A stretch of DNA of 64,000 nucleotides from Erinaceus europaeus (Eukaryota > Chordata > Mammalia > Eulipotyphla > Erinaceidae): the NCBI RefSeq assembly GCF_950295315.1, contig NC_080164.1, forward strand, positions 11,687,659-11,751,658, written 5' to 3'. The position numbers and the translations under genes were made by a program. Below, piece after piece: positions 437-60,384 of this stretch (the stretch's first letter is position 1; each line of letters opens with the position of its first letter). Under the pieces are notes generated by a model. That model did no database searches. It was not told the DNA's origin and was given only the letters and a program-made list of their open reading frames with translations.

Positions 437-890
437 GATTTATTTTTCCTTTCCTTCTCCTTCTCCTTCTCCTTCTCCTTCTCCTTCTCCTTCTCCTTCT
501 CCTTCTCCTTCTCCTTCTCCTTCTCCTTCTCCTTCTCCTTCTCCTTCTCCTTCTCCTTCACCTTTTCCTTCCCTTCCCTTCCCTTCCCTTCCCTTCCCTT
601 CCCTTCCCTTCCCTTCCCTTCCCTTCCCTTCCCTTCCCTTCCCTTCCCTTCCCTTCCCTTCCCTTCCCTTCCCTTCCCTGCCTTTCCCCTCCCTTCCCTT
701 CCCTGCCTTTCCCCTTCCCTTCTCCCCTCCCCCTCCCCTCTCCCCTTCCCTTCTCCCCTCTCCACTCCCCTCTCCCTCCCCTCCTCTCTCCCCTCCCCTC
801 CCCTCCTCCTTCCTTCCTTCCTTCTTTCCTTCCTTCCTTCCTTCCTTCCTTCCTTCCTTCCTTCCTCTCTTTCTTTCTTTTTCTCTGTTT
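437..890. repeat. Long pyrimidine tract of linked microsatellites
   Basis: The plus strand is almost purely C and T for about 450 bases. Blocks in order are TTCTCC hexamers (about 452-560), CCCTT pentamers (about 568-680), degenerate CCCCTCTCC sequence, and CTTC tetramers (about 808-866). Long frames on both strands (Ser-Pro and Glu-Gly-Lys repeats) are artefacts of the repeat. Confidence 0.95.
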
Positions 891-985
891 TTATTGTTTA
901 TTTATTCGTAATTGCACAGAAATAGAAATAAACTGAGATAGAAGGGGAAACAGAGAGGGAGATAGACAGAGAGACACCAGGAATC
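885..985 (-). mobile_element. SINE family B fragment
   Basis: The inverted B body is recognisable (ACAGAAATAGAAATAAACTGAG, then GAGAGGGAGATAGACAGAGAGACACC). The tRNA-like head is missing. The pyrimidine tract upstream may have grown from its tail side. Confidence 0.55.
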
Positions 986-1191
986 CAGGTTAGTGTGAAT
1001 CCAAAATAGTTCTGGTTCCAATAAAATATTCTTTATCTGAAATCAAATTTTCTTGATGCCCTATATTTTATATGGAAATACTAATCACGAAGATTTATAT
1101 TTTTCCATTTTATTTTATTCTTCGTAATTGATAGTGGTTTGCATGATTATAAGACTACAGGGTATAATTCTGTATCATACTAACAACATTC

Positions 1192-1481
1192 CTTTTTAAA
1201 AATTTTTTAAAATATTTATTTTCCCTTTTGTTGCCTTTGTTTTTTTAATTGTTGTTGTAATTATTATTATGGTTGTTATTCATGTTGTCATTGTTAGATA
1301 GGACAGAGAGAAATGGAGAGTGGAGGAGAAGACAAAGAGTGGGAGAGAAAGATAGACATCTACAGACCTGCTTCACCACCTGTGAAGTGACTCCCCTGTA
1401 GGTGGGGAGCCAGGGGCTTGAATAGGGATCCTTATACTTCGTGCCACCTGAATTTAACCCACTGCGCAACCGCCCGACTCC
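1192..1481 (-). mobile_element. SINE family A, full length
   Basis: This is a complete inverted family A element running from tail (TTTTGTTGCC, GTTGTTGTAATTATT) to tRNA-like head. It is flanked by a perfect 14-bp target duplication, TACTAACAACATTC, at 1178-1191 and 1482-1495. The duplication shows L1-driven retrotransposition. Confidence 0.93.
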
Positions 1482-1495
1482 TACTAACAACATTC

Positions 1496-2295
1496 TGAGC
1501 TTCCACACTCCCAATGGCAGGTCTCATAAAGTCTTAGCTAGAGTTTGCTGGTTTACAAATACGTTGGCTGGAGTATGTGTGTGTGTGTCTCCGTGAAGAT
1601 TATAGGCAACTCTACCTGAAGGTTATAAGTCCTATGGGTAAACTACCGGCTGGCTACTCTTGGATTGGAAAGCCAGGAGATAGCTGAGGGAGGTTCTTGT
1701 GAGAACCAGATTTGAAGTCATCATGATACATGAGCACTTAGATAATCAAATAATTGGCAACCACTAACAGATCATGATTACCTTCTGTGTTTAAGTAGAA
1801 AGGCGTTTGTAGAAGAAATTACCAGTGCTGATTTGCTGAATCCCTTACAGGGTGTACATGGGTTATCTTGAGTCAGTTTGTGGCCTTAGGAAGGGAATAC
1901 CTAATACATTCAGAGATGACACTCCTTTCAGGAAATAAAGCATAAGGAGAAGCCATCAGCCACCTCTAGGGCATCACCTGGCAGCTCTGGAGAAAGAAAA
2001 CTCTTAGGAGGACATGCTCAGGGGTCTTAGAGATATTCTGGGACTTGGATCTTCTCTCCTGAGTAGAGTGGGACTTGTTCCGTTGTTTCTAGATATAAGT
2101 TAAAGCACATTGATTGTCAGCCTAGATCACTAAGGATGAACTGACTTTCAGAATTGTGACCCTTTCCATTTCTGTTGCCATATCTCCTGTCTGAGATTGT
2201 CTCTTCAGTTGACACCTCTGTTGCGTTAAGGACTTTGGGCTCTTTACCACATTACATGACCATGATCGTGGACATTTCTCCTAAGAAGCAGGTGG
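1496..2295. other. Unique sequence
   Basis: No repeat or coding feature recognised. A short GT run lies near 1577-1589. Confidence 0.45.
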
Positions 2296-2757
2296 CTAAA
2301 CATTCTTTTTAAAGATTGTATTTATTTATTTTTATTTTTTTATATTTATTTCTTTATTTTCCATTTTGTTGTCTTTTTTTATTGTTGTCATAGTTGTTGT
2401 TATTGATGTTTTCCTTGTTGGATAGGACAGAAAGAAATGGAAAGAAGAGGGGAAAACAGAGAGGGGGAGAGAAAGACACCTGCAGACCTGCTTCACCACC
2501 TGTAAAGCAACTCCCCTGCAGGGGCTCAAACCAGGGGCTCAAACCGGGATCCTTAATCAGGTCCTTGTGCTTGGCGCCATGAGTGCTTAACCTGCTATCA
2601 CCGGACTCCCAAAGATTGTACTTATTAATAAAAGAGCTAGAAAAAGCAGAAGACAGAGAATCAAACAGCACTGCGATGCACTCAGTGCCAGGAATCAAAC
2701 TCGGGACCTCATCCTCAAGAGTCCATTGCTTTTTCCACTGTGCTATCTACCACCCAG
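2296..2757 (-). mobile_element. SINE family C, split by a family A insertion
   Basis: The inverted C motif GACCTCATCCTCAAGAGTCC and the head (TTTCCACTGTGCTATCTACCACCC) lie at 2611-2757. The tail side lies upstream of the nested SINE at 2321-2610. Confidence 0.7.
2321..2610 (-). mobile_element. SINE family A inserted in a family C SINE
   Basis: A full-length inverted family A element. The target duplication AAAGATTGTA lies at 2311-2320 and 2611-2620. A short internal duplication (GGGGCTCAAACC repeated) lies near the B box. Confidence 0.9.
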
Positions 2758-2779
2758 GCTGTATCAGTAGGCATTATTG

Positions 2780-2890
2780 TAGTCAACGACTGCCACCTCT
2801 CCAGATTCAAAGGAGGTCTCGAAACTTTACATCAGGCTCAACCTGACGCTGTTGACTGGCTACGGAAGAAGGGCAAACGCTAGAAGAAGA
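2780..2890 (+). mobile_element. 3' end of jockey-like LINE, strongly 5' truncated
   Basis: This segment matches 59821-59932 with two C/T differences in 112 compared bases. It encodes the last residues of the same protein (ending DAVDWLRKKGKR, then TAG) and the AAGAAGAA tail that starts inside the stop codon. The junction begins abruptly at TAGTCAACG. A 4-bp duplication (ATTG at 2776-2779 and 2891-2894) is possible but too short to prove. The match shows at least two insertions of the same young element in this window. Confidence 0.9.
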
Positions 2891-2894
2891 ATTG

Positions 2895-3326
2895 TATCCC
2901 TTCTTATGGATGTTAAATAGCATCTCATGACATTAACTTCTCAGCTCCTTAGCAAGTTTGGCAGCTTCTTTTTTTATATTTATTAGTCAATTTATCCTCT
3001 TCTATGACCTTTCCTTATCTTCATTCCCCTGATCTATGGGCTTCTGTTGGGACTCATTATATTGTCTGAAATATTTAAACACAATGCCAGGCTTCTTCCT
3101 ACTGTCATATTTGTGTTAAATCTATAATTCATTGAAGAGAGGTTTTAATTTTTGTATTAATTTCACCATATTGTGTATGCTTTTGATTGTTCACTACATA
3201 AAGTGGAAGAGAAAGAAACCCCAGCATAAAAAAAAAAAAAATTGCCCTGTAGGGTGGGACTGAGTTGAGTCAGGTTCCCAAGCAAAATAAACCAGGCACT
3301 CTCTCAGGTGAGCTGTCTTGCTAGGA
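2895..3326. other. Mostly unique sequence with an internal A run
   Basis: An A-rich run at about 3227-3241 may be the tail of an old unrecognised retroposon. Nothing else is assignable. Confidence 0.4.
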
Positions 3327-6767: not shown

Positions 6768-8867
6768 TCAATTCCTTTTACTATAGCAACAAACACAATA
6801 AAATATATGGGAATAAACCTAACCAAAGAAGTGAAAGTCTTGTGTACTGAAAATTATGAGTCACTACTCAAGGAAATTAAAAAAAATACATGAATAAATG
6901 GAAAGATATTTCATGTTCATGGGTTGGAAGAATTAACATAATCAAAGTGAATATACTACCCAGAGCCATATACAAATTTAATGATATCCCCATCAAGATC
7001 CCAAACACATCTTTAGGAGAATAGAACAAATGCTACAAATGTTTATCTGGACCCAAAAATACCTAGAATTGCCAAAACAATCTTAAGAAGAAAGAAGAAA
7101 ACTGGAGGCATCACATTCCCAGATCTCAAATTGTATTATAGGACCATTGTCATCAGAACTGTTTGGTACTGGAAAATGAATAGACACACTGATCAGTGGA
7201 ATAGAACTGAGAGTACAGAAGTAACCCAACATACCTATGGACATCTAATCTTTGACAAAGGTGCCCAGACTATTAAATGGGGAAATCAGAGACTCTTCAA
7301 GAAATGGTGTTGGGAAAAATGGGTTGAAATATGCAGAAGAATGAAACTGAACCACTATATTTCACCAAATACAAAAGTAAATTCCAAGTGGATCAAAGAC
7401 TTTAATATTAGACCACAAACTATCAGATATTTAGAGGAAAATATTGGTAAAACTCTTTTCTGCATAAATTTTAAATACATCTTCAATGAAACTAATCCAA
7501 TTACAAAGAAGCCTAAGGCAAGCATAAAATTATGGGACTACATCAAATGAGAAAGCTTCTGCACACAAAAAGAAACCACTACCCAAACCAAGAGACCCCT
7601 CCCAGAATGGGAGAAGGTCTTTACATGCCATACATCAAACAAGAGGCTAATAACCAAAAAATATATAAAGAGCTTGCCAAACTCAACAACAAGAAAACAA
7701 ATAACCCCAATCCAAAAATGGGGAGAGGACATGGACAGAATATTTACCACAGAAAAGATCCAAAAGGCTGAGGAACACATGGAAAAATGCTCCAAGTAAA
7801 GCTTCGATTTTCAGAGAAACGCAAATAAAGACAACAATGAGATACCACTTCACTCCTGTGAGAATGTCATACATCAGAAAAGGTAGCAGCATCAAATGCT
7901 GGATAGTCTCTGGTGTCAAAGGAACCCTCTTACACTGCTGGTGGGAATGTAAATTTGTCCAGCCTGTGTGGAGTACAGTCTGGAGAACTCTTAGAAGGCT
8001 AGAAATGGACCTCCCTATGATCCTGAAATTCCTCTCCTGGGGATATATCCTAAGGAACCCAACAGACCCATCCAAAAAGATCTGTTACACATATGTTCTT
8101 AGCAGCACAATTTGTAATAGCCAAAACCTGGAAGCAACCCATGTGTTCATCAGCAGACGAGTGGCTGAGCAAATTGTGGTATATATACACAGTGGAATAC
8201 AACTCAGCTATAAAAAATGACTTCATCATTTTTAGCAGATCTTGGATGGACCTTGAGAAATTCATGGGAGTTGGGCAGTAGTGCAGCAGGTTAAGCACAA
8301 TGACCCGCTGAAGGATCCCGGTTCGAGCCCCCAGCTCCACACCTGCAGGGGAGTCACCTCACAAGAGGTGAAGCAGGTCTGTAGGTGTCCATCTTTCTCT
8401 CCTCCTCTCTGTCTTCCCCTCCTTTCTCCATTTCTTTCTGTCCTATCCAACAACAATGACATCAATAACAACATCAATAATAACTATAACAATACGACAA
8501 CAGGGGCAACAAAAGGGAATAAAAAAGTAAATACATATTTTTTAAAAGTTCATATTAAGTGAAATAAGTCCAAAACAGAAGGATGAATATGGGATGACCT
8601 CACTCTCAGGCAGAAGTTGAAAAATAAGATCACAAGAGAAAACACAAGTAGAACCTGAACTGGAATTGGCATGCTGCACCAAAGTAAAAGACTTTGGGGT
8701 GGGTGGGGGTAGAATTTAGGTCCAAAAAGGATGACAGAGGACCTAGTGGGGGTTGTATTGTTATATGGAAAACTGGGAACTGTTATGCATGTACAAACTA
8801 TTGTATTTACTGTCAAATGTAAAACATAAATACTCCAATAATGAAATTTAAAAAAGTAATACAAAAA
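6768..8867 (+). mobile_element. 5'-truncated L1: ORF2 C-terminal half and short 3' UTR
   Basis: Frames spread over 6768-8225 encode typical L1 ORF2 C-terminal sequence, including AFFNEMNPI-like and WWECKFVQPVW-like segments and the end motif YIHSGIQLSYKK. They are broken by stops and frameshifts. The region after 8549 is a short 3' UTR (GGGGTGGGTGGGGGTAGAA) ending in AATGAAATTTAAAAAAG. This is an older L1 type than the one with the 1.3-kb 3' UTR. A family A SINE interrupts it at 8266-8548. Confidence 0.9.
8266..8548 (+). mobile_element. SINE family A inside L1
   Basis: Direct orientation with a B box of GGTTCGAGCCC and a tail ending AAATACATATTTTTTAAAAG. The target duplication is short and imperfect (TTCAT at 8261-8265 and 8549-8553). 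Confidence 0.9.
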
Positions 8868-26259: not shown

Positions 26260-28656
26260 AGAATGATATAACAGAAAAATAAAAAAAACTCATCAATAAA
26301 AAATGGGTAAATCAAGAGCAAATTAAACTGCTACCACAATGAATCAGGACAGGAGCCCAGAAGTAACTAATAATCACAGAAATGAAGACAACTATGGAGG
26401 GAAAGGATATCAGTATTAGGGAAACAACAGAGGAGAACCTCAAAGAAAATACAAGATACCTTGAGGTAAGTAGAGAAATGAAAGCTGAAATAACTGAGCT
26501 AAAAGGCCAACTATAAGGACAAGTTAATACTATAAATGAACTGAAGAAAGAGGCTCAAGGAAGGGAAAGCAGATTAACAGAAGCAGAAAACTGAATTAGC
26601 CAGACAGGAGGTAATCATCACCAAGCCTGCAATAAAAGAGTTACTAAAAGACCTCTTATAAGGAATAATACCACCATAATACTTGCCATATATCAGAGAA
26701 AATAAAGAATTGTTGAATAATGGCACTACAATACATTAAATCCATAATATCAATAAATGTCAATGGGTTAAATTCACCCATTATAACTCACAGAGTGGGA
26801 GGATGGATGAAAAAACACAACCCAACCATATGCTGCGTGCAAGAATCCCACCTGAGCCAACAAGACAAATGCATACTTAAAGTGAAATAATAGGAAACTA
26901 TCATACAGGATAATGGACCACAAAAAAGGGAAGGAATAGCCATTCTCATCTCTGACACCACAGACTTCAAATTGAATAAAATAATAAAAGATAGGCAAGG
27001 ACATTACATAATGATTAGAGGATCAATCAACCAAGAAGATTTAACAATTATTAACATATATGCACTCAATGAGGGACCATCTAAATACATCAAACACCTA
27101 CTGAAAGAACTATAAAAATACATCAATAGTAATACAATAATAGTGGGAGACTTCAACACCCCACTCTCACACTTAGAGAGATCAATGAAGCAGAGAATCA
27201 ACAAAGAAACAAGAGAATTAAATGAAGAGATGGGCAGACTAGAACTCCTGAACATTTTCAGAGTCCTTCAACCCCAAAAACTGGAATACACACTCTTTTC
27301 AAATCTACACAGCACATCCTCAAGGTTAAACCACATGTTACCCCACAAAGACAGTATCAACAAATTCAAGAGCACTGAAATCATCCCAAGTATTTTTTCA
27401 GACCACAGTGGAGTAAAGTTAACATTCTACAACAAACAAAAAATTACTAAAAGTCACAGAATTTGGAAACTAAACAACATACTATTTAAAAACCACTGGG
27501 GGGGGGGGCAGGCAGTGGCACACCTGGTTAAGCACACATACTACAGTGCACAAGGATCTGAGCTCAAGTCCCTGGTCCCCACCTGCAGGGGGAAAGCTTC
27601 TCAAATGGTGAAGCAGGTGTGCAGATGTCTTTCTGTCTCTCTCCCGCACTATTCCCCCCTCCCCTCACAATTTCTCTCTGCCTCTATTCAATATAAATAA
27701 ATAAATAAATAAATAAATATTAAAAAATAGAACCACTGGGTCAGAGAGGCACTCAAGCAAGAAACTCAAATGAAACTGGAAACAAATGAAAAGGAAGATG
27801 CATGTTATCAAAATATTTCAGATGCAGCTAAAGCAGAGCTGAGAGGGAAATTCATAGCCATACAATCACATATTAGAGAACAAGAAATAGCTCAAAGAAA
27901 CGATCTTACTGCATGCCTTAAGGATTTAAAGGAAGAAGAATAAAGGGAACCTAAATCAACCTGAAGGATGGAAATAATTAAAATTAGAGCAGAAATAAAC
28001 AACATCGAAAATAAGAGAACCATACAAAAGATCAATGAATCCAAATGTTGATTCTTTGAAAAATTAAACAAGATTGACAAAACACTAGCCAGAATAAAAA
28101 AAAAAGGGGAGGAGAAAACCCAAATAAATCAAATTGTAAACTATAGAGTAGATATCACAACTGACACCACAGAAATCCAGAAAATCATGTGAGCCTTCTA
28201 CTCAGAACTATATGCCACCAAGCTAGAGAAGTTAGAAGAAATGGAAGAATTATTTGAAACATATACCCTTCCAAAACTGAACCAAGGAGAACTACAAAAC
28301 CTAACTGCACCAGTAATAGACAGAGAAATCAAAACTGTTATTAAGAATCTTCCCAATAGCAGAAGTCCGGAACTTAAGATGACTTAAGAAACAAATTCTA
28401 CAAAAATTTCAGGAAACAGCTAATACCTATACTTCTAAAGCTCTTCCAAGAGCTTCCAAGATCAAAGAAACAGGAACACCCCCTTGCACCTTCTATGAAG
28501 CCAACATCACCCTGATACCAAAAGCAGATAGGGACACAACAATAAAGGAAAACTACCGACCAATATCTCTAATGAACACATACGCCAAAATATTAAACAA
28601 GATCCTGGCCAACCAGATACAGCAGTATAACAAAAATGATGACTCTTTAGTCAATA
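26260..28656 (+). mobile_element. L1 with decayed ORF1 and truncated ORF2
   Basis: ORF1 remains (26280-26660) have a large internal deletion: the coiled-coil start runs straight into the C-terminal tail (KPAIKELLKDLL-like). ORF2 would start near 26720. It shows the endonuclease region (ESHLSQQDKC-like, VGDFNTPLSHLERS at 27143 onward) and the N-terminal RT region up to about 28650 ([16 protein letters not shown], [16 protein letters not shown]). It is full of stops. Sequence then jumps directly to 3' UTR, implying an internal deletion of roughly 2 kb of ORF2. Confidence 0.85.
27501..27730 (+). mobile_element. SINE family B inside L1 ORF2
   Basis: Direct orientation with an AAATAAATAAATAAAT tail and a perfect 10-bp duplication, AACCACTGGG, at 27491-27500 and 27731-27740. 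Confidence 0.95.
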
Positions 28657-44530: not shown

Positions 44531-47500
44531 TCAACTTCTGTTGATGAGTGGGATCATCCCATACTCATCTTTATCTTTCTGACTTAGCTCACTTACCATA
44601 ATTCCTTCTAGCTCTGTCCAAGATGGGTCAGCGAAGGTGGGTTCATTGCTCTTGATAGCTGCATAGTATTCCATTGTGTATATATACCATAGCTTTCTCA
44701 GCCACTCATCTGGTGTTGGGCACCTGGTGCTCAACAACAGATTTGTGCTGCTATGAACATAGGAGTACACACCTCTTTTTGGTTGGGTGTTATGGAGTCT
44801 TTGGGGTATAACCCCAGGAGAGGAATCACTGGATCATATGGAAGATCCATGTCTAGCCTTCTGAGAGTTTTCCAGACTGCTCTCCACAGAGGCTGGACCA
44901 ATTTACATTCCACCAGCAATGAAAAAGGGTTCCTCTGTCCCCACAACCTCTCCAGCATTTGTTGCTGCTGTCCTTTTTGATGTATGCCATTCTTACAGGA
45001 GTGAGGCAGTATCTTAGTGTTATCTTAATTTGCATTTCTCCGACAATCAGTGACCTAGAGCAGTTTTTCATATGTTTGTTAGACTTTTGGATCTCCTCTG
45101 AGGTGAATGTTTTGTTCATATCCTCTGCCCATTTTTGGATGGGGTCATTTGCTTTTTTGGTGCTAAGTTTGCTGAGCTCTTTATATATTTTGGTGATTAG
45201 TTTCTTGTCTGATGTATGGCATGTGAAGATCTTCTCCCATTCTGTGAAGGGTCTCTTTGTTTGTTTAATAGTTTCTTTGGATGTTCAGAAGCTTTTAAAT
45301 GTGATGTAGTCCCATTGGTTTGTTTCTGCTTTAGTCTTCCTTGCAATTGGGTTTGATTCATCAAAGATGTCCCTGAGGTGTAGGTGGGAAAGTGTTTTAC
45401 CAATGTTTTCCTCTAAGTATTTGATTGTTTCTGATCTAACATCTAGGTCTTTGATCCATTTGGAGTTGATTTTTGTTTCTGGTGAGATAAAGTGGTTCAA
45501 TTTCATTTTCTGCATGTTACAACCCAGGTTTCCCAGCACCATTTATTAAAGAGAGCCTCCTTTTTCCATTTAATACTTTGGGCCCCCTTGTCAATGACTA
45601 GATGTCCATAGGTGTGGGGATTTATTTCTGGGCTTTAAATTCTGGTCTACTGGTCTGTCTGCCTATTTTTGTTCCAGTAACATGCTGTTTTGAAGGTGAT
45701 GGCTTTATAATATAGTTTAAGGTCTGGGACTGTAATGCCTCTATTTCTGTTTCTTTTCTTTAAGATGGTCTTGGCCATTCTAGGTGTTTTCATGTTCCAG
45801 ATAAATGACTGTAGTGTTTGTTCTATTCTCTTAAAGAAGCTTGGTGGAACTTTGATGGGTATTGCATTAAATTTGTATATGGCTCTGGGGAGAATATTCA
45901 TTTTGATGATATTTATTTTTCCAATCCATGAGCATGGGATATCTTTCTATTTCTTGGTATCAGTTTCTATTTCCTTGAGTAGCGACTCATAGTTTTCAGC
46001 ATACAATTCTTTCACTTCTTTGGTCAACTTTATTCCTAGGTATTTGATTGATTTTGCTGAAACAGTAAACGGGATTGATTTCTGGATGTCTTCTTCTTCA
46101 GATTTAGTGTTTGCATAAAGAAATGCCACTGATTTTTGTACATTGATTTTGTACCCTGATACCTTGCTATATTGCTTAATAACTTCTAGTAGTTTTCTGA
46201 AGGATTCTTTAGGTTTTTCTATGTATACTATCATATCATCGGCAAATAGTGAGAGCTTGACTTCTTCCCTTCCAATCTATATTCTTTTGATTTCTTTCTC
46301 TTGCCTGATTGCTATAGCAAGAACTTCCAATACTATGTTGAAGAGTAATGGTGATAGTGGACAGCCCTGTCTAGTCCCCGATCTGAGGGGGAATGCTTTC
46401 AGCTTCTGTCCATTGAGTATGATGTTGGCTGTAGGTTTGCTATATATAGACTCCACTATCTTGAGGAATTTCCCACCTATTCCCATTTTTTGTAGAGTTT
46501 TGAGCATGAATGGGTGTTGGATTTTGTCAAAGGCTTTCTCTGCATCTATTGAGATAATCATGTGGTTTTTGGCTTTGCTTTTATTGAAGTGGTGAATGAC
46601 ATTGATTGACTTATGGATCCTGATCCAGCCTTGCATTCCTGGGATGACTCCCACTTGGTCGTGATGAACAGTCTTTTTGATATGTTGCTGTATCCGGTTG
46701 GCCAAGATCTTGTTTAATATTTTGGCATCTATGTTCATCAGAGATATTGGTCTGTAGTTTTCCTTTTTTGTTCTGTCCCTATCAGCTTTTGGTATCAGGG
46801 TGATGTTGGCTTCATAAAAGGTGGAAGGGAGTATTCCTGTTTCTTCAATCTTATGGAAAAGTTTAAGAAGTATGGGTACTAAATGTTTCCTGAAAGTTTT
46901 GTAGAATTCATTTGTGAAGCCATCTGGTCCAGGACTTTTGTTGTTGGGGAGGTTCTTAATAAAGGTTTCAATTTCTTTGTCTGTAATTGGTGCATTTAGA
47001 TTTTGTAGTTCTTCTTGGTTCAGTTTTGGAAGGGCATATGCTTCTAGGAATTGTTCCATTTCTTCCAGATGCTCTAGTTATGTGGTGTATAGTTCTTTAT
47101 AGAAGTTTCGCAGGATTCTCTGGATTTCTGTGGTGTCTGTTGTGATATCTCCTCCATCGTTTAGAATTCTTTTAATTTGAGTCTTCTCTCTTTTTTTATT
47201 TGGTGAGTCTGGCTAGGTGTTTGTCAATTTTGTTTAATCATTCAATGAACCAACATTTGGCTTCATTGATCTTTTGTATGGTTCTTTTATTTTCGTTGTT
47301 TATTTCTGCTCTAACTTTAGTGATTTCTGTCCTTCTGGATACTTTAGGGTTCATTTGTTCCTCTTCCTCTAAGTCCTTGAGGTGTGCAGTAAGGTCGTTC
47401 ATTTGAGCTTCTTCTTGGTGTTTAATATGTAATTGTATGGCTATATGTTTCCCTCTCAGTACTGCTTTAGCTGTGTCCCAAATATTTTTATAGGTGTGTC

Positions 47501-48333
47501 TTCATTTTCATTTGTTTCCAGGAACATTTGAATTTCCTGCTTGAGTGAGTCTCTGACCCAGTGGTTCTTAAGGAGTATGTTCTTTAGTTTCCAAATTCTT
47601 TGACTTTTAATAATTGTCTGTTTGTTGTTAAATGTTAGTTTTACTCCACTGTGGTCTGAGAAGATACTTGGGATGATTTCAATGTTCTTGAATTTATTGA
47701 TGCTCTTTTTGTAGTCTAACATGTGTCTATCCTTGAGTATGTGATATGTGGATTTGAAAAGAAGGTGTATTCCAGTTTTTTGGGGTGAAGGACTCTGAAA
47801 ATGTCCAAGAGGTCTAGTCTCTCAATCTCTTCATTCAATTCTCTTGTATCTTTTGGTTCTCTGCTTTGTTGATCTGTCTAAGTGTGAGAGTGGGGTATTG
47901 AAGTCTCCCACTATTATTGTATACTACTGATGTATTTTTGAAATTCTTTCAGTAAGTGCTTGACGTATTTAGTTGGTCCCTCAATGGGTGCATAGATGTT
48001 AATGATTGTTAAGTCTTCTTGGCTGATTGATCCTCTCATCATTATTTAGTGTCCTTGCCTATCTTTTATTACTTTATTTAATTTAAAATATATCGTTTCT
48101 GAGATGAGAAAGGCTGTTCCTGCCCTTTTTTGTGGTCCGTTAGCCTGTATGATACTTTTCCATTCTTTCACTTTAAGTCTGTGTTTATCTCTTTGTGAGA
48201 GATGGGATTCTTGCAAGCAGCATATGGTTGGGTTATGTTTTCTGATCCATCCCCCAACTCTGTGCCTTTTGATGGGTGAGTTTAAGCCTTTGACATTTAT
48301 TGATATTATGGATTTAATGTATTGTAGTGCCAT
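44531..48333 (-). pseudogene. L1 ORF2 (endonuclease and reverse transcriptase), broken
   Basis: ORF2p nicks target DNA and copies L1 RNA. The frame starts at 48333 (MALQYIKSI) with the endonuclease signature LNSPIKRHRV and CCLQESHLS. The RT region at 46277-47059 shows [34 protein letters not shown] and [14 protein letters not shown]. The catalytic SADDM motif lies after a frameshift near 46230. The C-terminal zinc-knuckle region (GTLFHCWW) and end (MIPLINRS) are present. The span of about 3.8 kb equals a normal ORF2, so damage is by point changes and small indels, not by deletion. Confidence 0.92.
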
Positions 48334-48397
48334 TGTTCAAAAAAAATTTTTTTTTGTTTGCTCTGATATATTGCTAGTATTATAGTGATGTTCTTGT

Positions 48398-49313
48398 TTA
48401 TAAGAGGTCTTTTAGAGCCTCTTTCAGGGCCGGTTTGATGATGGTTGCCTCCTTTAACTGTTGTTTGTCTAAGAAGGTTTTGATCCCTCCATCTAGTTTG
48501 AATGAAAGTCTAGCAGGATATATTATCCTTGGTTGAAACCATTTTTCATTCAGGACTCGATAGATATCTTGCCATTCTCTTCTAGCTTTTAGAGTTTTAG
48601 TGGAGAAATTTGCATATAATCTTATGGACTTTCCCTTGTATGTGACTTTTTGTTTCTCTCTTGCAGCCTTTAGGATCCTTTCTTTATTCTTACTACTTCT
48701 CATTGTGACTATGATGTGTCTTGGTGTCTTCATGTCTGGGTTGATTCTGTTTGCTACTCTCTGTGCCTCTTGAATCTTGATGTCCTTTCTATTATTCAGG
48801 TCTGGGAAGTTTTCTTGTATTATTTCCTCTAGAATGTTTGCTTCCCCTTCCTCTCTTTCTTCCTCTGGCAGGCCAATTATGCGAATATTCCTTCTTTTGA
48901 GATCATCCCATATGTCTTTGTTGTTGTTTTCAGTGTCTCTCAATCTCTTTTTAAGCTCTTTCACCTCTTTCTTAGTTTTCTCTAACTCATCCTCTGTCTG
49001 ACTGATTCTGTTTTCTGCTTCTGTTAGTCTGCTTTCCCTTGCCTCAGCTTCTTTCTTCATTGCAGCTATTTCAGCTTTCAGTTCTGTAATTGCCTCAAGA
49101 TAATCAGTATTTTCCTTGGGGGTCTCAACTGTTGTTTCCCTAATACTGCCATTCCTTTCCTCCCATGTTGTTTCATTTCTGTGACTAGTAAGTTTATTAT
49201 TGCTTGCATACTTTTCTTATCTATGGTTACTTCTGGCTGATTTGTAGTTTCTTCTGGGCTCTTGTCTTCATAAATTGGAGTAGCAGTTTTATTTGTTTTT
49301 CATCTACCCATTT
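48398..49313 (-). pseudogene. L1 ORF1 (RNA-binding chaperone), broken
   Basis: ORF1p forms trimers that coat L1 RNA. The C-terminal 220 residues are open (48398-49060): coiled coil with heptads (ESRLTEAENRISQTEDELEK), RRM core (RRNIRIIGLPEE) and C-terminal domain (EKWFQPRIIYPARLSFKLDG). The likely start near 49313 is followed by a TGA at codon 4, and a further frame break separates the N-terminal part from the coiled coil. Confidence 0.9.
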
Positions 49314-58400: not shown

Positions 58401-58570
58401 TATTAAGTTCTTTTTTTTTTTTTTTTTTTTTTTGCTGCCAGGATTATTGCTAGGGCTTAGTGCCAGTACCATAAATCCACTGCTCTTGGAATCCCTTTTT
58501 TTTTTTTTTTTTGTAAATAGGATATAGCAGAAATACGTTGACGAGCTGAATAGTTCCAATAGTAATGGAG

Positions 58571-58894
58571 TCATACAAGGTCGAAGAGGCCGTATGGTAA
58601 ACGTCCGCAAAACACGATTTGGCGTAGATGGCTCGGCTGTGGTTTAGGATGGAGATTATAGCATATTAAATCGAATCCACTGATGGTGAATCGAGCAGCT
58701 TCATCGACTGCTATATGTGTTTCTTGTAGGCAAATAACATTTGCCTGATGCTGTATCGCCAATTGACCAATAAGAACGCGTTTGGCAAAGGACAGCCCCT
58801 CAACATTAAGTTGGAGGACTCTCAAAGCAGGACCAACAGCTTGAAATCTGTCAGAAGCTGCTTGTTGCTGGCTTTGAAAGTGACTGGGATCCAT
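58571..58894 (-). pseudogene. Endonuclease N-terminal fragment of jockey-like LINE
   Basis: 107 codons. After a short leader (MDPSHFQSQQQA) the apurinic-type endonuclease begins: LRVLQLNVEGLS (the Asn motif), then NVICLQETHI with the catalytic Gln-Glu-Thr, then SGFDLICY. The frame is lost after about residue 90. An alternative frame just beyond resembles the expected continuation, so a small indel is likely. It lies in inverse orientation to the RT part because of twin priming. The original ORF probably starts close to this Met. Confidence 0.85.
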
Positions 58895-58933
58895 ATGGAT
58901 TCAGTCGGCTAGGAAGGATCTTCAGTTTCCCCA

Positions 58934-59923
58934 ATGAATGGGTACTCACGGGATGCACCACAGGAAGGTCGATCCAATGCATCCCACTGTAAAAAATGGC
59001 AACTAATCCCTAGCACTGCAAAAACGGTATCATCTGTTTTCCATCTACACCATGCCTTGGCCTCGCGTGAGCTTAATGTGCAGCTTGACGATATGAGAAT
59101 CCGGCATGAAGCCCAGCCAGTCTATCTTGGCATTACTCTTGATCGCACTCTGTCATTTCACGAACATCTCATAAAAACTGCAGCAAAGGTGGGCGCGAGG
59201 AATAACATCATTGCAAGACTGGCCAGCTCCTCATGGGGCACGGGCGCTTCCACACTACGATCATCATCTCTGGCATTATGCTATTCCACTGCAGAATACT
59301 GTGCCCCAGTATGGTTCCGTAGCCCCCATGTCCACTTGGTCGATTCCAAATTATATTCCTCCATGAGGATAATTTCTGGAACCATCCGTTCCACCCCGGT
59401 TCCATGGCTGCCAGTTCTTAGCAACATCGCCCCGCCAGATATTCGTCGGGATGCGGCATCATCTAAGTTCATTTCCCACGTCTACGCTCGACCGGACCTG
59501 CCAATATACGCGGAGATCTTTGCCCACCCTGTCCAACGCTTGACGTCTCGTCACCCAATCTGGTCCCCTACGCCTACACCGAACTTCTCTGTTCCAGTCT
59601 CTTGGAAACAGAGTTGGCAGTCAGCTGAGGTAAAGAACAAACACCTCATCACAGACCCCTGCAAGCGTCAACCCGGCTTTGACCTAGCACGTTATGATTG
59701 GGCCCTCCTCAATCGCTATCGAACAGGCCATGGCCGGTGGTGCGCCGCTATGTTCCATCGCTGGGGAGCCAGAGACGACCTGAACTGCCCCTGCGGCTAC
59801 AGACAGACTATGACCCACATAGTCAACGACTGCTACCTCTCCAGATTCAAAGGAGGTCTCGAAACTTTACATCAGGCTCAACCTGACGCTGTTGACTGGC
59901 TACGGAAGAAGGGCAAATGCTAG
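58934..59923 (+). pseudogene. C-terminal reverse transcriptase region of jockey-like LINE
   Basis: The frame is open for 329 codons; the first 17 or so are junction sequence. RT homology starts at KKWQLIPSTAKT, just after where the YxDD catalytic box would be, so the catalytic core is missing. It continues with PVYLGITLDRTLSFHEHL (thumb region), STAEYCAPVWFRS, RWCAAMFHRWG and a cysteine-histidine motif C-x-C-x7-H-x4-C (about residues 285-300). It ends DAVDWLRKKGKC. No stop or frameshift in about 310 codons means the copy is young. It is not functional on its own. Confidence 0.9.
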
Positions 59924-60384
59924 AAGAAGAAGAATGGCAGAAATAAACTGAGAAAGGAGGAGGAGATAGAGAGAAAGAGAGAGATAGACACCTGCTGATC
60001 TTTATCACCTCTCATATAGGATCCCGCCCCCACCACCACACTTATGGAGTTGGGAATGAACCCGGATCCTAGCACATGTCCTTTCACTTAACCAGGAGCA
60101 GCACAGCTGGGTCCCAAAGCATTAAGTACTTTCTCTCAATTTCAACACTTACATCCCTGTAGACAGGTAAGATATAATTCATAAACAGATAGCGTTATTT
60201 AGACTATACTTTAAAACATTTAGACATAAACTACAATGATTCATTTCTGTTGTCCAGCAAACAATAACACACCATCTCAGCTACCAGCAAGAGATCTTGG
60301 GGCATGTTTTTTGTTAGTGCTCACCAAATGGAAATATACGGGTGTGTGTATAGCCCATTTCTGCTACAGAACTGCAATTATTTT

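Follow-up and report, generated by a model that had tools for sequence, protein, structure and literature searches.

A probable twin-primed, 5'-inverted copy of a Vingi LINE in the hedgehog genome

Vingi elements and the 5' inversion of LINEs

Non-LTR retrotransposons of the Vingi clade carry an AP-type endonuclease domain in their ORF, and the lack of an RNase H is what separates them from Ingi. In the hedgehog, Vingi is compact, with a single ORF, and has non-autonomous derivatives with internal deletions. Elements of the Jockey clade have a gag-like ORF1 ahead of a second ORF and combine an AP endonuclease and a reverse transcriptase (RT) with a Cys/His C-terminus. Kojima, Kapitonov and Jurka reportedly presented Vingi in 2011 as the sister clade of Ingi, without RNase H, and are said to have described its non-autonomous families as arising by internal deletion. 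The family itself is already known in hedgehogs, where it has been in print since 2011: a passage of PMC5753468 reports it there (citing Kojima, Kapitonov and Jurka 2011), and an excerpt of PMC3183009 gives 311 copies of Vingi-1N3_EE under 1% divergence in Erinaceus europaeus, in such a way that the novelty which an initial annotation of the present locus had seen in the element does not stand.

As the hallmark of twin priming, passages of PMC2837659 and PMC12016303 give one pair of target duplications around opposite-strand pieces of a single element, and for human germline L1 the same passages report 165 inverted insertions out of 897. In cell culture, according to an extract of PMC4245944 that deals with L1, ZfL2-1 and Nimb-2_DR, 5' inversions were confined to L1 in human cells, one Nimb-2_DR insert excepted.

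A two-piece insertion and its family

The window, that is, the whole stretch of 64,000 nucleotides of E. europaeus DNA that was analysed, contains at 58536-59936 a single non-L1 LINE copy with endonuclease and RT-type C-terminal segments (Table 1). In this copy around 450 bp of the 5' end of the element are reversed and joined to its last 950 bp, the ~1.69 kb between them being missing, and the internal junction of the two pieces showed neither a tail nor a duplication. The initial annotation had described an endonuclease segment with ICLQETH, an RT C-terminal frame with LGITLDRTLSFHEHL and a C-x-C-x7-H-x4-C end, an exact 9-bp target duplication, and the lack of a 3' UTR except for an AAG repeat, and all of these were found again. 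ICLQETH lies inside an open 109-codon frame on the minus strand (58574-58900), the change of strand having been overlooked, and LGITLDRTLSFHEHL and the C-terminal motif lie inside a 336-codon frame on the plus strand (58913-59920). It is the inversion of the 5' part that puts the endonuclease and RT segments on opposite strands and, as the 336-codon frame starts inside the inverted piece, its first 24 codons (58913-58984) are not RT. The 9-mer of the duplication has one further occurrence in the window (27989-27997), so that what gives the duplication its weight is its placement at either end of the element.

Table 1. Coordinates in the window of the inverted insertion, its flanks and a second copy
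Feature	Position	Strand	Basis
Left target-site duplication, GCAGAAATA	58527..58535	.	exact copy at 59937-59945
ATA microhomology of target and element at the putative second-priming junction	58533..58535	.	target ...AAATA/CGTTGAC; element (reverse complement) ...ATATA/CGTTGAC
Inverted 5' piece: short 5' leader, ORF start, N-terminal AP endonuclease (ICLQETH)	58536..58984	-	collinear with first ~440 nt of L009:2613-5687
3' ORF piece: C-terminal region of the RT protein, C-x-C-x7-H-x4-C end	58985..59920	+	97-98% identity to 39 other long own-genome matches
TAG stop codon (at 59921), then directly short (AAG)n tail AAGAAGAAGAA, without 3' UTR	59921..59936	+	AAG-type tails in 47 copies compared
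Right target-site duplication, GCAGAAATA	59937..59945	.	exact copy at 58527-58535
Second Vingi copy: final 112 bp of the element at 98% identity, with AAG tail	2780..2891	+	sequence match

A full-length natural copy of ~3.07 kb is present in the same genome (L009:2613-5687), itself with stops and flanked by a 9-bp duplication. Both window pieces are collinear in it, its first ~440 nt corresponding to 58533-58984 inverted and its last ~946 nt to 58986-59934 forward. The full-length element has one reading frame, with AP endonuclease and RT, preceded in L009 by a leader of ~90 nt ahead of the endonuclease ORF, and ORF1 is absent from this copy. Inward of the window junction point the sequence is common to fourteen copies, with a mean identity of 0.91 across the first 12 nt; outward of it these copies are unrelated (mean identity 0.25 over 60 bp), and therefore the inverted piece reaches the true 5' end.

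The Pfam family Exo_endo_phos was matched by the inverted piece of the window (E 0.0072) and by L009 (E 6.4e-05) below the curated cut-off, and by L029 (E 2.1e-11) above it. In open frames of natural copies Exo_endo_phos_2 was found at E 3.6e-10 and 1.7e-11 (the latter in L009), and RVT_1 at E 1.2e-33, the 3' piece of the window giving no Pfam family match of its own. No RNase H family appeared at E<=1 in six scanned pieces, among them the 305-aa C-terminal piece and the 629-aa frame of RT plus C-terminus, in a scan where the filters of HMMER may drop very weak matches. A PDB search with the C-terminal piece gave 0 hits, and the chains matched by the RT were R2 (E 9.4e-13) and, more weakly, L1 ORF2p (E 3.3e-9).

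The element thus combines an AP-type endonuclease, a non-LTR RT, no detected RNase H, a ~3.07-kb single ORF and deleted derivatives, all of them Vingi traits, and it is very probably the Vingi LINE of hedgehogs, an assignment made by architecture, host and description. With Vingi-1_EE and Vingi-1N of E. europaeus it shares a hedgehog-type host, a young age and a high number of copies and, going by the general description of Vingi, also the endonuclease and RT without detectable RNase H and the internally deleted derivatives; it differs from Vingi-1_EE in that the window copy is 5'-inverted and has lost ~1.69 kb. We regard it as, very probably, an ordinary copy from a known family, uncommon only in its 5' inversion.

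Two derivative copies of ~195 bp (L025:2615-2810 and L035:2426-2620) are internally deleted, each consisting of about 130-148 bp of the 5' end and 57-64 bp of the 3' end, and one of them is inserted within a longer Vingi copy. They agree with the description of Vingi given above.

The element had been labelled jockey-like and unrelated to L1, and this label survives only in part. It is indeed a young non-LTR element and not an L1, with R2 ahead of L1 ORF2p among PDB chains and endonuclease-RT proteins, up to 61% identical, as the closest proteins listed. The jockey-like part is not supported because the architecture fits the published hedgehog Vingi better. The AP endonuclease, the RT and the Cys/His C-terminus are common to both, but the full-length copy is without the ORF1 that characterizes Jockey elements and the element has an AAG tail. 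An upstream ORF1 of Jockey type was found neither in L009, given its short leader, nor in the 14 copies with the same 5' end, and the single ORF, the lack of a detected RNase H, the length and the host also favour Vingi, a preference that comes from architecture and host.

Copies in the hedgehog were searched in its own 2.72-Gb assembly of 1172 contigs, in which the window occupies C3:11687659-11751658, and where the 1401-base, inverted-piece and last-301-base queries gave 8070, 3110 and 1168 first-look candidates, respectively, figures which are not copy counts. With the 1401-base query 45 matches were obtained, five of them short (92-96%) and 40 long (97-100%, the window itself and 39 others), the alignments of these 39 opening at query position 450 or 451, the start of the forward piece. 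The inverted-piece query and the last-301-base query gave 40 matches each (self and 39 others). The sets of the 1401-base and last-301-base queries have one copy in common besides the window's own (C4:24815226), and combined they contain 77 or more further 3' ends with an identity of 97-98%, in such a way that the proposed low copy number is not supported. Among 26 copies (935 bp, 325 pairs; a sample biased to the nearest copies) the mean pairwise difference was 2.8%, which at mammalian rates suggests that the LINE may have been active during the past several million years. Compared with the majority of the 26, the window copy has 15 differing sites, nine of them at CpG and three private.

In proteins, the C-terminal query matched 734 of 1653 scored proteins at E<=0.001 and the 629-aa RT query 2079 of 8000, with identities of 42-61% among the best 120 listed per query, P0121 excepted. 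Both the own-genome and the protein matches are far beyond chance. Named hosts among the matches listed are eel (54%), turtle (52%), pseudoscorpion (45-46%) and insects (44-46%), in addition to metagenomes. The exception, P0121, belongs to a 2,072-base metagenome contig; along 563 residues this protein reaches 96% identity, and most likely it represents hedgehog-type host DNA in a sample. In a midpoint-rooted tree of 120 rows, made of 119 of the 120 C-terminal-query matches listed (P0001 left out) and the window, a set of 71 rows with 97% support includes eel, turtle and the element, the last with an end branch length of 0.67, and no supported closer partner for the element was found within this set.

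The initial annotation had proposed a recently and horizontally acquired, low-copy LINE of the jockey clade, and this proposal we consider unlikely. The patchy distribution among the matches listed (fish, turtle, arthropods and metagenomes) and the long end branch within the set that includes eel and turtle speak for horizontal transfer, and a passage of PMC3183009 counts hedgehog Vingi among the likely horizontal transfers in mammals. Nevertheless, the many genomic copies argue against the low-copy part and the lack of ORF1 against a jockey-clade acquisition; no donor exceeds 61% protein identity among the matches listed, except for the hedgehog-like P0121; and a further point against the proposal is X12_LINE, a human repeat classed as Vingi in a passage of PMC5753468. 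Horizontal transfer of the element as such is possible and, because of the classification of X12_LINE, so is vertical descent with loss.

Formation of the inverted copy

With its inverted 5' piece and forward 3' piece within one target-site duplication, the window copy bears the mark of a twin-primed insertion, and we hold with high confidence that it is a dead copy of the hedgehog Vingi LINE, 5'-inverted by twin priming. According to this mechanism, the endonuclease of the element would have nicked the bottom strand of the target, and the AAG-ended RNA would have been reverse transcribed from this nick, the first cDNA stopping ~950 nt in. The 3' end of the top strand (...AAATA) would then anneal to an internal site of the RNA and prime a second cDNA, which would extend to the 5' end of the RNA, and the joining of the two cDNAs would produce the head-to-head copy.

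Two further copies have the same organization, making three twin-primed copies in all, with duplications of 9, 12 and 12 bp. In L031+L069, reference positions 3-619 are inverted and 587-3075 are forward, with a 33-bp overlap and the 12-bp duplication AACCACAACAAT, and in L033+L070 positions 3-2445 are inverted and 2449-3072 are forward, with the 12-bp duplication AATGGTTATGCA. Both come from the 11 non-self loci of the 5'-piece search, a set that favours copies with an intact 5' end; eight of the remaining nine are collinear to the edge of the retrieved DNA, their far ends lying beyond it, and L035 breaks at reference 713.

A head-to-head arrangement could also arise by chance from two independent Vingi insertions, or from one insertion followed by a genomic inversion, and nested Vingi insertions do exist in this genome (L019, L025 and L026). 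Such a two-event origin is nonetheless very improbable, in view of the single duplication pair that brackets both pieces, the internal junction without visible tail or duplication, the 3 nt common to target and element at the second-priming site, and the like architecture of L031+L069 and L033+L070, each with one duplication pair.

Two observations count against the twin-priming explanation, namely the ~1.69-kb gap and the lack of inverted copies among 25 described below. As to the gap, it exceeds the breakpoint spacing of 132 of 287 human L1 inversions, which, according to passages of PMC12016303 and PMC2837659, have near-adjacent breakpoints (within 20 bp).

Inversion frequency and target duplications

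The frequency of twin priming was approached with a sample anchored at the 3' end, taken from the best 39 matches to the 3' end of the window, 29 loci of which were examined and the 10 others left out. Three loci run off the retrieved DNA (L046, L048 and L056) and one has only 17 bases past its left edge (L050), leaving 25 resolved copies. No 5' inversion was found in these 25, in which an inverted piece had to be at least about 20 bp long to be visible, and 13 of the copies have a duplication of at least 7 bp at the expected place. Likewise, there was none in 17 usable copies with a long 3' piece (L020 left out), the nested L019, L025 and L026 aside. One copy, L018, has 19 unexplained bases between the duplication and the left edge. 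At the L1 rate of 165/897, the probability of 0/25 is P = 0.006, a value that is only indicative in a non-random sample.

Like the human L1 twin-primed insertions in passages of PMC12016303, PMC2837659 and PMC4245944, the window copy has an inverted 5' piece and a forward 3' piece, one duplication pair, a short homology at the second priming and an internal deletion. It differs in that its tail is AAG rather than poly(A), that ORF1 is missing and that the RT is only distantly similar, and inversion looks rarer in Vingi (0/25, in a biased sample) than in germline L1. From the three twin-primed copies set against 0/25, 5' inversion in mammals is probably not confined to L1: Vingi, with duplications of ~10 bp, would do so too, seemingly at a lower rate than human L1, and we claim no priority for this. 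As the family is known, the finding itself adds little, and its useful part is mechanistic. If true, it would provide a natural experiment on which of the two, element or host, determines how often inversion occurs. With a non-L1 LINE resident in a mammalian genome, the shares of element and host in twin priming could be separated by counting.

Among the 47 copies whose 3' end was usable, 23 have a readable duplication of at least 7 bp, with a median of 10 and a range of 7-13 bp. These readable duplications, together with the position of the window within a 185.7-Mb contig and the spread of copies over many contigs, leave practically no room for contamination of the assembly by foreign DNA, in favour of which no point was found.

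Twelve of the 23 duplications start with AG (11) or AAG (1), compared with 6.9% AG in the window, and the proportion is 10/21 if only an AG lying beyond a 7-bp core is counted; L025 is omitted from the count of duplication starts, its only match of at least 7 bp being the tail repeat matching itself. This suggests that the AAG end of the RNA may pair with the target, a lead only, since the tail ends in AAG and detection is thus biased towards AG.

Elsewhere in the window, frames at 46280-49216 (minus strand) and 7017-8217 (plus strand) resemble, by their motifs, pieces of L1 ORF2 and ORF1.
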